In this document: positions 2,260-59,396 of the stretch, piece by piece
Layout of the letters: each line of letters starts with the position of its first letter
Numbering within the stretch: the first letter of the stretch is position 1
Assembly: GCA_027490155.1 (NCBI GenBank)
Contig: JAIXYP010000040.1
Location: forward strand, 1 to 59,396
From: Cytophagaceae bacterium
GTDB lineage: Bacteria; Bacteroidota; Bacteroidia; Cytophagales; Flexibacteraceae
Length of the DNA stretch: 59,396 nt
Direction of reading: 5' to 3'
Position numbers and translations under genes: made by a program
Notes under the pieces: model-generated
The model's database searches: none
Told to the model about the DNA's origin: nothing
Seen by the model: the letters and a program-made list of their open reading frames with translations, nothing else

Positions 2260-2889
2260 TCAATACAACGAGTCCATATCACCAGCTCCCTGTCTGATGA
2301 TTTCGGGCTCGTCTCCTGTGCAGTCTATAATTGTTGATGCAAGGATGTTGCCGATCCCGCCTCCTATCACGAGGTCCACTTGGTTGCGATATTGTTCATA
2401 GATCAACTCTGGGTCTGTCGTGTATTCAACCAAATCATCTTGGCCTTGGACAGAGGTGCTGATGATCGGGTTGCCAAGATCCTTTACCAAAAGCCGTGGG
2501 ATGTTATGGTCTGGTATCCTGATACCAACCTGTTTTTTGTTGTTGTTCAGCAACTTAGGCACTTTACTGCTGCTCTCAAGGATGAAGGTAAACGGACCTG
2601 GTAGGCCTTTTTTCATCATCTTGAATACTGGTGTTGTCACATGTTTGGAGTAGTCCGACAGGTGGCTTAGATCGTAACAGATGAAGCTGAAGTTGGCCTT
2701 CTCGGGTTTTACCCCTTTGATTTTGGCTATGCGCTCTATCGCCCGGGCGTTCATGATGTCGCAACCCATGCCATAAATGGTATCGGTAGGGTAGATAATG
2801 ACCCCCCCATTCCTTAAACAGTCCACCACCTGTTTGATTTTGCGTGGCTCGGGGTTGTCCGGGTGGATTTCGAGATATTCAGCAGGCAT
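2260..2889 (-). CDS. L-threonylcarbamoyladenylate synthase, YciO/TsaC type
   Basis: A 209-residue YrdC-domain protein. [12 protein letters not shown] near residue 35, [16 protein letters not shown] in the middle, PGPFTFIL and [13 protein letters not shown] are the family's nucleotide and substrate-binding segments. The family makes threonylcarbamoyl-AMP from threonine, bicarbonate and ATP for the t6A37 tRNA modification in the cytoplasm. There is no Sua5 C-terminal domain. A second YrdC protein with a Sua5 extension lies at 19473-20549, so this copy may be the YciO-type paralogue whose activity is less certain. The ATG at 2889 lies 29 bases after a TACCTTTG promoter word. Confidence 0.85.
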
Positions 2890-4413: not shown

Positions 4414-5244
4414 ATGCGCGTAAGGGTAATTTTTACTTTGGTTAACAAAGGCGCCGTGGCGCCCTTCCATCACCAAAACATACTTTCGGAGGTAATTACT
4501 CAGGTAACTTCAGATGGTTTGCCTCAAAGCCTGTGTTACAGCTGTCTAAAAGGGCAGACAAAGGTAACGAGTCTGGGACTTAGTTACTTTAGCACCAAGG
4601 TATCATTGGTGATGAGTAGTAGCGAAAAAACTGACCTAGACGCTGTCTTGAACGGGATTTTTGCTCAGAAACAGATCGAGGTAGGTCAGCTGATCTTGAT
4701 ACCTGATTCGGTGTCGATGGAAGAGCCTCCTAAACATGAAGACCAAGCACGGTATGTATGCCTCAGCCCATTGGTTGCGATACAAGGCCCAGCCGGTGAC
4801 CCAGAGGCTAAACGATTTATCTCTCCGGATACTGATGCTTTCAGTGACCTTTTGTACGAAAGCACGATGATCAGGCTTGAGGATAGTGGTAGGTTCAGCG
4901 CCGAGCAGATCGCTTCCTTTTACAAATTTCAGGTCTTGCCTGACGCCACTTATCTCGCTAAGATGAGACGTGAGGAAAAGAAATTCGCTCGTATCTATCA
5001 ACTCAATGCCGGTCAGATCTCTCATGAGATTCGTGGTTACACCTTTCCGTTCACGCTATATGCACACCCATTGGTGCAAGAGTTCTTGTTCGATAATGGT
5101 CTTGGGGAACATTGTACCCAAGGTTTTGGCATGATCGACCTAGCCGAACAGCAATTTCATAACCGCATGGTGCCTTATTACCTCGAAGGTCAGAAACCAA
5201 CAACCCCCGAGCGGACTTTTGCCCGGCGCGAAAAGGTAGCTTAA
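4414..5244 (+). CDS. cas6: orphan CRISPR-associated endoribonuclease Cas6
   Basis: A 276-residue protein with Cas6 layout. The N-terminal ferredoxin-like strand MRVRVIFTLVNKGAVAPFHH has candidate catalytic His19/His20. A YFSTKVSLV strand sits where Cas6 proteins have their FTFSxL segment. The C-terminal glycine-rich loop GLGEHCTQGFGMI covers about residues 229-241. Cas6 cuts CRISPR precursor RNA within repeats. No other cas gene and no repeat array lies within the window, so it is either an orphan acting on arrays elsewhere or repurposed for another RNA. A hairpin terminator follows. Family assignment rests on the glycine-rich loop and overall architecture; catalytic residues are inferred. 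Confidence 0.75.
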   Translation: MRVRVIFTLVNKGAVAPFHHQNILSEVITQVTSDGLPQSLCYSCLKGQTKVTSLGLSYFSTKVSLVMSSSEKTDLDAVLNGIFAQKQIEVGQLILIPDSVSMEEPPKHEDQARYVCLSPLVAIQGPAGDPEAKRFISPDTDAFSDLLYESTMIRLEDSGRFSAEQIASFYKFQVLPDATYLAKMRREEKKFARIYQLNAGQISHEIRGYTFPFTLYAHPLVQEFLFDNGLGEHCTQGFGMIDLAEQQFHNRMVPYYLEGQKPTTPERTFARREKVA

Positions 5245-5334
5245 CCTCAGGGTCTGCCTCAACAACCTATGATCGATCCGTCCCAGTAGGTCTTAATCCT
5301 ACATTAAACTTATATTTCTGGTGTCCAAGAATAG

Positions 5335-5364
5335 AAGCAGTCTGTCATTTGGGCTGCTTTTTTT
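5335..5364 (+). terminator. terminator downstream of cas6
   Basis: AAGCAGTC (5335-5342) pairs with GGCTGCTT (5352-5359, one G-U), followed by a run of T. It isolates cas6 from the small lipoprotein gene. Confidence 0.6.
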
Positions 5365-58045: not shown

Positions 58046-59396
58046 CTACTTCGTGAAGTATTTCAGGCGGATAACCTCTTGCTCAGACAGGTAGCGCCAA
58101 TGGCCACGTGGCAGATCCTTTTTGGTCAGGCTGGCATACATCACACGGTCTAGGCGGATGACATCATAACCCAACTCTTCGAAGATACGACGGACAATCC
58201 TGTTCCGGCCACTATGGATTGCAAGGCCCAAGATGTCTTGGTCTGGTGACAAGATTTCAACTTCATCGACTTCGGCTAGGCCGTCCTCGAGCATCACACC
58301 AGCTTTGACTTTCTCAAAATCCTCAGGTACGATTGGTTTGTCCAGATCTACCTGATAAATTTTACGTGTCTCAAAACTTGGGTGGGTCATTTTCTCGGCA
58401 AGGTCACCGTCATTGGTCAGGACCAACAAACCAGTAGTATTGCGGTCAAGGCGACCAACTGGGAATACCCGGCCTTTGCTAGCACCACGGATTAGCTCCA
58501 TAACCGTGTGCCGGTTTTCTGGATCTTCGGTAGTGGTGATATAGTCCTTCGGTTTGTTTAGTAAGATATAAACTTGGCCTTCAGGCTTAAGCTCCTTGCC
58601 ACCATACGTTACGACATTGTGCGGCTCGACTTTGTGGCCCATTTCTGTCACAACAATGCCATTGACCATGATCTGGCCATTGGCAATCAGCTGATCAGCA
58701 TCACGACGGCTACAGATACCAGCATTTGCGATGAACTTGTTCAGGCGTACAGATTTGTCGGTACTAACCTCAACACCAGCCTGCTTAGCCTCGCGAGCAG
58801 CATGCTTGAGCTCCATTTTTGATAGCTTTTCGCTATAGTCTGGCATCTCACGGATCTGGCCCACATTAGTACCAAACGAGTCACGCGTGGTCTTGCCAGA
58901 GCGCAATTTCTGGATCCGCTGGCGGACATCAGAACGGGTGATACCCATGTCACGACGTCTTGGGCGATCGCCATCATTGTTGTTTTCGGACCTATCGAAC
59001 GAGCGAAAAGCTGGGCGGTCACCACGATCATCCTTAAAGTCAGGACGGTCTCCGTTAAAACCACGGAAAGGGCGGTCACCACCTGGGCGGTCACCATCAA
59101 ATTTGCGGAAAGGAGGACGGTCGCCAGAAGGACGATCACCACCGCCGAAACGAGGGCGATCTCCACCACTTGGGCGGTCACCATCAAATTTACGGAAAGG
59201 AGGACGGTCGCCAGAAGGACGATCACCACCGCCAAAACGAGGGCGATCTCCACCACTTGGGCGGTCACCATCAAATTTACGGAACGGAGGACGGTCGCCA
59301 GAAGGACGATCACCACCGCCGAAGCGTGGGCGATCTCCACCACTTGGGCGGTCACCATCAAATTTACGGAACGGAGGACGGTCGCCAGAGGGACGA
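58046..59396 (-). CDS. RluB/RsuA-family pseudouridine synthase with Arg/Gly-rich repeat extension, 5' truncated
   Basis: The frame is open from the right edge of the window to the stop at 58046, 449 visible residues; the start lies outside. The C-terminal half has an S4 RNA-binding domain (VRLNKFIANAGICSRRDADQ) and the pseudouridine synthase domain with the catalytic aspartate in VGRLDRNTTGLLVL, then HSGRNRIVRRIFEELGYDV. It isomerises uridine in large-subunit rRNA. The N-terminal part is low complexity, built of RPSGGDRPRF, GGGDRPSGD and RPPFRKFDGD units repeated every 29 residues, resembling RGG-type RNA-binding tails. An ATG at 58948 exists, but the frame continues without stop well upstream, so it is not the start. 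Confidence 0.9.
   Translation of the reverse strand, partial: RPSGDRPPFRKFDGDRPSGGDRPRFGGGDRPSGDRPPFRKFDGDRPSGGDRPRFGGGDRPSGDRPPFRKFDGDRPSGGDRPRFGGGDRPSGDRPPFRKFDGDRPGGDRPFRGFNGDRPDFKDDRGDRPAFRSFDRSENNNDGDRPRRRDMGITRSDVRQRIQKLRSGKTTRDSFGTNVGQIREMPDYSEKLSKMELKHAAREAKQAGVEVSTDKSVRLNKFIANAGICSRRDADQLIANGQIMVNGIVVTEMGHKVEPHNVVTYGGKELKPEGQVYILLNKPKDYITTTEDPENRHTVMELIRGASKGRVFPVGRLDRNTTGLLVLTNDGDLAEKMTHPSFETRKIYQVDLDKPIVPEDFEKVKAGVMLEDGLAEVDEVEILSPDQDILGLAIHSGRNRIVRRIFEELGYDVIRLDRVMYASLTKKDLPRGHWRYLSEQEVIRLKYFTK
59085..59396. repeat. 87-base tandem repeat, at least 3.5 copies, inside coding sequence
   Basis: The marker GGGCGGTCACC recurs at 59085, 59172, 59259 and 59346, exactly 87 bases apart, with near-identical units that run off the window. 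Each unit encodes 29 residues of the synthase extension. Confidence 0.92.

Follow-up and report, generated by a model that had tools for sequence, protein, structure and literature searches.

Introduction

Two groups of previously described systems come closest to the gene reported here. The first one comprises the Cas6 proteins of clustered regularly interspaced short palindromic repeats (CRISPR) systems. For PfuCas6, Tyr31, His46, and Lys52 have been described as catalytic residues (PMC3652601), the structure 3ufc represents the non-catalytic PfuCas6nc (PMC3652601), and a P. horikoshii homologue was described as inactive and RNA-binding (PMC3727216). The second one is solo-Cas4, which is located outside CRISPR loci, is inherited mostly vertically under purifying selection and also occurs in CRISPR-free genomes (PMC5704561). 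In this study, we describe cas6L, an orphan Cas6-family gene located on a contig of a Cytophagaceae bacterium (assembly GCA_027490155.1, contig JAIXYP010000040.1). The whole contig (59,396 bases) was analyzed and is called the window.

By fold and profile, cas6L belongs to the Cas6 superfamily, but its genomic context and its catalytic residues indicate that it is not a CRISPR Cas6. On balance, we lean toward the interpretation that cas6L is a domesticated RNA-binding relative of Cas6, which has left CRISPR and acts on cellular RNA without canonical catalysis. Solo-Cas4 is the nearest concept since it is also a cas gene maintained outside CRISPR by vertical descent under purifying selection. 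However, solo-Cas4 is a nuclease of another family that occurs in archaea and bacteria (PMC5704561), whereas cas6L encodes a RAMP protein that was found in a single order in our samples. The reviewed exaptations of CRISPR parts mostly keep the effector complex or the guide RNA (PMC8730458). Full-text searches of open-access papers yielded none whose title or abstract opening deals with a Cas6 family of Cytophagales that stands alone without CRISPR, which is a weak absence, and the PMC8987985 passages contained no mention of Cas6. If our interpretation is true, a lone Cas6 retained throughout the depth of the order would illustrate clearly how an RNA-processing protein of immunity became a core component of the cell, similar to solo-Cas4 except that the fold is RNA-binding. 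In the public record, the Bernardetia copy of cas6L bears the annotation "CRISPR-associated endoribonuclease Cas6", so that surveys inferring CRISPR from the number of Cas6 genes could go wrong in Cytophagales.

Profile matches and structural model

A first-pass annotation of the window had assigned the protein to Cas6, and profile searches supported this assignment. PF01881 (Cas6 C-terminal) matched residues 103–243 with an E-value of 7.5e-17 and 62.8 bits (cut-off 23), and the Cas6 models of PADLOC matched the window protein with an E-value of 3.1e-22. The NCBIfam equivalog TIGR01877 gave an E-value of 4.4e-12, but with 46.9 bits the window protein stayed below the cut-off of 58.65 and should therefore be considered a divergent Cas6. 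All 41 cas6L orthologues of our alignment (A1) matched this model at E <= 0.01. The Cas6b domains PF17955 and PF17262 were not found in the window protein when Pfam was searched with E-values up to 10, and PF01881 was the only matching family. The glycine-rich loop noticed before was recovered as GLGEHCTQGFG. It fits the Cas6 consensus G-phi-G-X5-G-phi-G, for which a positive residue within X5 has been described (PMC3727216). In the window protein, His is the only such residue within X5, and in the family Lys is the commonest residue at position 236 (16/41).

The AlphaFold2 model of cas6L, for which the 41 orthologues were used as input, had a mean predicted local distance difference test score (pLDDT) of 92.8. 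When this model was compared with solved structures (VIA-align), the five best entries were 3qjj (Z 25.4), 3ufc (25.3), 5yi6 (24.2), 3i4h (24.0), and 3pkm (23.6), and the next entry dropped to Z 15.3. The root mean square deviation from the best structures was 1.9–2.5 over 211–226 residues, and for PfuCas6 (3i4h) it was 1.9 over 211 residues. According to the model, cas6L adopts the Cas6 fold across both tandem RAMP/ferredoxin-like domains with residues 1–246 being matched.

The two highest Z-values were obtained for Pyrococcus Cas6nc (3ufc and PH0350, 3qjj, which we take to be the PhCas6nc of reviews), and these proteins share the two RAMP domains and the glycine-rich loop with cas6L. Together with 5yi6, they were also the top PDB sequence matches at about 20% identity. 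However, they are archaeal proteins, and the RNA used in their study came from CRISPR repeats. In contrast, cas6L belongs to a bacterial order, has no detectable cas neighbours, and many of its carrier genomes lack the CRISPR genes searched for. The canonical Cas6 proteins of type I and type III systems (PfuCas6, 3i4h; PF01881 proteins of Bacteroidota) also share fold, glycine-rich loop, and PF01881 with cas6L. Here, the differences are the missing array and cas partners, the missing catalytic triad, the separate clade (support 99), and, for the window copy, the score below the equivalog cut-off. Taking fold and motif together, we infer that cas6L binds RNA. It would most likely bind one specific cellular RNA via the glycine-rich loop, the beta2'-beta3' hairpin, and the cleft between the two domains.

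Absence of CRISPR partners

The first-pass annotation had stated that the 59 kb contain neither CRISPR repeats nor other cas genes, and this held. No CRISPR-like array was found within the window, and genome-wide searches placed no Cas1, RAMP, Cas7, or second PF01881 gene on this contig; these searches covered the named cas families. We then compared 44 cas6L loci (mostly about 8 kb on each side, some shorter, and the window as a whole; open reading frames (ORFs) of at least 80 amino acids). None of their 558 neighbouring ORFs matched any of 27 Cas proteins, and the only array-like repeats in the 44 loci were the coding ones with which the window ends. The 27 query proteins originated from CRISPR loci of this study and were labelled by reading. 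When 23 of them were scanned, all labels agreed; Csm5 of L127, Cas5 and Cas6 of L109, and one RAMP of L128 carry labels from reading alone. As positive control, the same neighbour test was applied to 27 other Cas6 loci and yielded cas neighbours in 20 of them.

The seven silent control loci consisted of two short contigs (L114, L116) and five lone Cas6 genes from outside the order, so that the idea of orphan Cas6 being confined to this family was rejected. The control loci cover some of the Cas6 matches from beyond the order, but not all.

Distribution and inheritance

Our genome samples involved 194 genomes of Cytophagales and two phylum samples (395 and 208 genomes). Orthologues of cas6L were detected in 114 of the 194 Cytophagales genomes (E 2e-47 or better), while 80 genomes lacked the gene. 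One of 115 initial matches (G176, E 1.8e-6) was excluded since its sole match was an ordinary Cas6 beside CRISPR genes. Outside its own genome, orthologues shared 38–95% identity with the window protein, and each carrier had one strong match (plus one extra fragment in G165). In the phylum sample of 395 genomes, 63 had a match. Here, nine members of the order (including the own genome) scored 366–410 bits and the best other match reached 95 bits. Named carriers include Rhodocytophaga aerolata, metagenome-assembled Cytophagales genomes, further members of that order, and a Bernardetia replicon, and the order is called Cytophagales on this basis.

A tree was built from 58 cas6L rows together with 15 rows of other Cas6 proteins. 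Here, cas6L formed one side of a branch with a support of 99 in the Shimodaira–Hasegawa-like approximate likelihood ratio test (SH-aLRT). The tree is of the quick type, its branches are long and its inner order is unsure, and the 58 rows include one identical pair from one genome. Comparison with the host phylogeny, as proposed in the first-pass annotation, indicated that cas6L follows the host families: 14 family labels required 15 changes on the tree (minimum 13), compared with a mean of 53 after shuffling, and none of 200 shuffles was as low. Similarly, the identity of cas6L (38–88%) tracked that of YchF (65–97%) with r = 0.68, and none of 2000 permutations was as high. For this comparison we used the 17 loci in which ychF is located directly upstream of cas6L, and PF06071 was confirmed in the one that was scanned. 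Comparison of the window gene with that of a congener yielded a non-synonymous rate (dN) of 0.026 and a synonymous rate (dS) of 0.313, which corresponds to a dN/dS of about 0.08. Taken together, cas6L forms a single clade, has been passed on vertically and is under purifying selection. Its occurrence in 114 of 194 genomes, the lack of cas neighbours in the 44 loci, and this selection strongly support the earlier statement that the gene is an orphan and not the fragment of an eroded cas operon. The most plausible history would be that Cas6 left CRISPR and was fixed in the chromosome across a large part of Cytophagales by vertical descent.

The gene could alternatively be a decaying leftover without function. 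Loss of the canonical catalytic residues and the 80 genomes of the order without the gene are in line with this possibility, but the low dN/dS, 29 invariant columns across the 41 diverse sequences, and the lack of an internal stop within the match in 105 of the 114 copies speak against it. Because of this sequence constraint the idea is largely refuted and we consider it hardly credible.

No match of cas6L was obtained in phage records, viral contigs, or PHROGs. Plasmid records contained one match, which is located on a non-mobilizable 602-kb replicon of Bernardetia. There, purQ and rimM are among the listed neighbours and an IS4 transposase is located about 3 kb away. A mobile origin of cas6L was rejected on the basis of these phage, viral, and plasmid searches. 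Defence genes usually turn over quickly. In our data, cas6L is inherited vertically, occurs as one strong copy in each carrier, and has housekeeping neighbours where these were identified. Together with the lack of phage and viral matches, this makes it improbable that the protein serves defence outside CRISPR by sensing or cutting the RNA of phages. In favor of such a role one may argue that Cas proteins form a defence pool and that solo-Cas4 has been proposed to have uncharacterized defence or repair roles (PMC5704561).

Catalytic residues and family constants

In a single alignment, the columns of the PfuCas6 triad, which fall into a poorly alignable stretch, were occupied by Tyr, His, and Lys in all 22 CRISPR-located Cas6 proteins (22/22 each), whereas Tyr and His were found in none of the 41 cas6L orthologues (the His column is gapped) and Lys in only 3. 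The 22 CRISPR-located rows comprise 19 loci defined by the neighbour test, L075 (source of test queries), and L110 and L113, the cas genes of which were identified by reading. L150 was left out since no Cas6 ORF was found there. An earlier set of ten class-A Cas6 proteins, which still counted the lone Cas6 of L118, had given Tyr in 9, His in 9, and Lys in 10 of 10. A second Bacteroidota Cas6 class carries the His of an LHKW motif (5/5), and this His is absent from cas6L as well. Some CRISPR loci of Bacteroidota contain the two Cas6 types close together, the 218-amino acid LHKW type and the 276–280-amino acid triad type (paired genes in Table 1).

The His pair noticed in the first-pass annotation does exist (H19-H20) but is not located at the position of the canonical catalytic His. 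At the H20 column, ten class-A relatives carry Tyr, Thr, or Cys and five class-B proteins carry Tyr or His. In all 41 orthologues, R2, R4, Q21, S43, K46-G47-Q48, K190, R193, R207-G208-Y209, and the loop glycines are constant. In the AlphaFold2 model these residues map to strand 1, the start of helix 1, the first hairpin, the hairpin of the second domain, and the loop. The matching regions of described Cas6 proteins surround the RNA and the active site (PMC3727216). Most of these constant columns vary among the 15 other Cas6 rows.

These constant residues are open to two interpretations. They might form the rebuilt site (H20/Q21, K46, K190, R193, R207) of a site-specific endoribonuclease that processes cellular non-CRISPR RNA. 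A precedent is provided by Sulfolobus Cas6, which cleaves without an active-site His by using lysines and an arginine (PMC3652601). Moreover, H20 is retained in 39 of the 41 orthologues and Q21, K46, G47, Q48, K190, R193, and R207 in all of them, and these columns are mostly variable in the 15 other Cas6 proteins. However, Tyr and His of the Pfu type and the LHKW His are absent, the Lys is rare, and non-catalytic paralogues are among the nearest structures. Thus, we consider a rebuilt nuclease rather unlikely and favor the non-catalytic RNA-binding protein. The first-pass annotation had also mentioned processing of other RNA. This is possible, but since the RNase residues of the Pfu type are missing, a claim of RNA binding stands on safer ground than one of processing. 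With the Tyr/His/Lys triad lost, cas6L probably functions as RNA chaperone or regulator and not as canonical pre-CRISPR RNA nuclease. Both the cellular target and the lack of ordinary catalysis are conclusions that we infer from these data.

The five lone Cas6 genes from outside the order, for which no cas gene was detected in 16–18 kb, are compiled in Table 1. The triad was incomplete in four of them and thus, exit from CRISPR and loss of the triad coincide more than once. Two of these loci, L142 and L118, share a family code. Within the set, L142 is matched best by L118, whereas the best match of L118 itself is a Cas6 with this family code that is located in a CRISPR locus. In a broader and more tentative scenario, cas6L would be a housekeeping Cas6 of Cytophagales, which was permanently recruited near the base of the carrying clade, binds or processes a conserved chromosomal RNA of normal cell physiology with a rebuilt HQ, KGQ, and KxxR/RGY site and represents the clearest case of a wider Bacteroidota trend of Cas6 proteins escaping from CRISPR and losing the catalytic triad.

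CRISPR content of the carrier genomes

The first-pass annotation had considered that cas6L could serve a distant array, and in this case the protein would be a trans-acting Cas6 and shared host factor for arrays located elsewhere in the genome. In the own genome, PF10040, RAMP (PF03787), and Cas7 of types I-B/I-C (PF05107) gave no matches, and no second PF01881 gene was found besides that of the window. As far as searched, a split class 1 locus in this genome was therefore rejected, the only Cas1 being linked to Cas9. The corresponding cas9–cas1 locus on another contig is, judged by size and gene order, probably of type II-C. Maturation of CRISPR RNA in type II systems uses RNase III, so that this locus is expected to do so as well (PMC3727216). 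At the contig start of the cas9 locus, two copies of a repeat unit are located 65 nucleotides apart, and the array was probably cut by the assembly.

Among the 114 carriers, 85 lacked RAMP and Cas7 (I-B/I-C) genes and 46 of these also lacked Cas1, including two genomes consisting of one contig each (G004, G076). Some observations do favor a trans-acting Cas6. RAMPs were found in 23 of 114 carriers but in 5 of 80 non-carriers, and Cas1 in 65 of 114 versus 16 of 80, both comparisons being uncorrected for kinship. In addition, of the 23 RAMP-positive carriers only 9 had a second PF01881 gene, compared with 33 of 38 RAMP-positive non-carriers of a phylum sample (its one carrier, G050, was left out) and with 4 of the 5 from the order itself. 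These numbers first supported the idea that cas6L fills in for a Cas6 lacking from type III loci, but this candidate failed later on. Ten of the remaining 14 RAMP-positive carriers contained a Cas6b-type ORF together with type III genes; four of these ORFs had seeded that search. When six of the ten were run against Pfam, all six carried PF17955 and PF17262. Thus, another Cas6 is available in 19 of the 23 carriers with RAMPs (9 with a second PF01881 gene and 10 with a Cas6b-type ORF). For G014, G031, G111, and G141, no Cas6b-type ORF was found in the stretches examined, each of which runs up to the end of its contig. Cas6b, which co-resides with cas6L in some carriers, differs from it by its location inside CRISPR loci and by its Pfam family, and the type III loci containing it need not use cas6L. 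Similarly, all 11 Cas7-positive carriers had a second PF01881 gene. Taken together, most class 1 loci of other carriers are equipped with a Cas6 of their own, and the own genome offers only a cas9–cas1 locus. Service to a distant array is therefore disfavored and appears quite improbable to us.

Several observations weigh against a domesticated RNA-binding protein outside CRISPR. RAMPs and Cas1 are more frequent in carriers, as given above, and in one carrier (G037, outside the 44 loci) a Cas1 gene and an array are located about 9–11 kb from cas6L. The genome-wide class 1 search was limited to the families named above and left out Cas3, Cas10, Cas7 of types I-A/D/E/F/G, type IV families, and arrays. 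RNA binding itself is concluded from fold and motif. Apart from the poor alignability of the triad columns, the Sulfolobus enzyme implies that cleavage could persist even though the triad is gone, and the constant residues (H/Q, K, and R), which lie close to the active-site region of Cas6, could be a new catalytic set. Finally, no conserved RNA fold was found within 200 nucleotides upstream or downstream of cas6L when alignments of 7 family groups were folded. A single folding signal came from one upstream group (f15), and its pairs fall within the end of the ychF frame.

In G037, the array of about 21 repeats and the Cas1 gene (L126, 3267–6957) are located far from the type III effector genes of this genome (L125). 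The stretch GTCGCAATCC is common to the array repeats of L119, L124, L126, and L130, which represent four genomes and four family codes.

Neighbouring genes and features

The genes next to cas6L in the window encode a Sua5/YciO protein (PF01300), DUF6048, DUF6452, and a periplasmic-binding-protein-like product, which agrees with the housekeeping and conserved unknown flanks described before. Across the 44 loci, the recurrent neighbours were ychF (17 loci), a DUF3276 gene (14 loci), and the Sua5 gene (6 loci). The window had no Rfam match at the gathering score. The gene had also been credited with its own terminator. One terminator-like hairpin is indeed present downstream, but shuffled sequence averages 1.3 such sites and thus, the evidence is weak. 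Coordinates of all features are given in Table 1.

Table 1. Coordinates of cas6L, its conserved sites and the other features (window positions unless a locus is named)
Feature	Position	Strand	Remarks
cas6L, orphan Cas6-family gene	4414..5244	+	ATG to TAA, 276 amino acids
H19-H20-Q21, start of helix 1	4468..4476	+	Q21 in 41/41, H20 in 39/41 orthologues
K46-G47-Q48, turn between strands 41–46 and 49–52	4549..4557	+	each in 41/41 orthologues
Codons 189–209, strands 192–199 and 202–209	4978..5040	+	taken as beta2'-beta3' hairpin; K190, R193, R207, G208, Y209 in 41/41
Glycine-rich loop GLGEHCTQGFG	5098..5130	+	codons 229–239; G229, G231, G237, G239 in 41/41
Sua5/YciO gene	2260..2889	-	relative near cas6L in 6/44 loci, all in the family of the window
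Terminator-like hairpin 3' of cas6L	5333..5361	+	not above chance
Open frame running off the contig end	58046–59395	-	about 4 copies of an 87-nucleotide (29-amino acid) GGDRP-rich coding repeat
cas9 (1128 amino acids) and cas1	L038 498–4782, contig C34 of the same genome		both confirmed by PADLOC
Lone Cas6 outside the order	L118 8141–9040 (G469)		keeps Lys only
Lone Cas6 outside the order	L142 7967–8875 (G299)		triad all lost
Lone Cas6 outside the order	L146 7387–8199 (G371)		triad all lost
Lone Cas6 outside the order	L148 7731–8504 (G350)		keeps His only
Lone Cas6 outside the order	L149 7643–8464 (G382)		full triad kept
Paired Cas6 genes	L110 8101–8757 and 9858–10688		
Paired Cas6 genes	L113 6583–7239 and 7229–8071		

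The GGDRP-rich repeats at the end of the window (59043–59396, period 87) mimic CRISPR-like periodicity in simple scans, but they are coding repeats and not an array.
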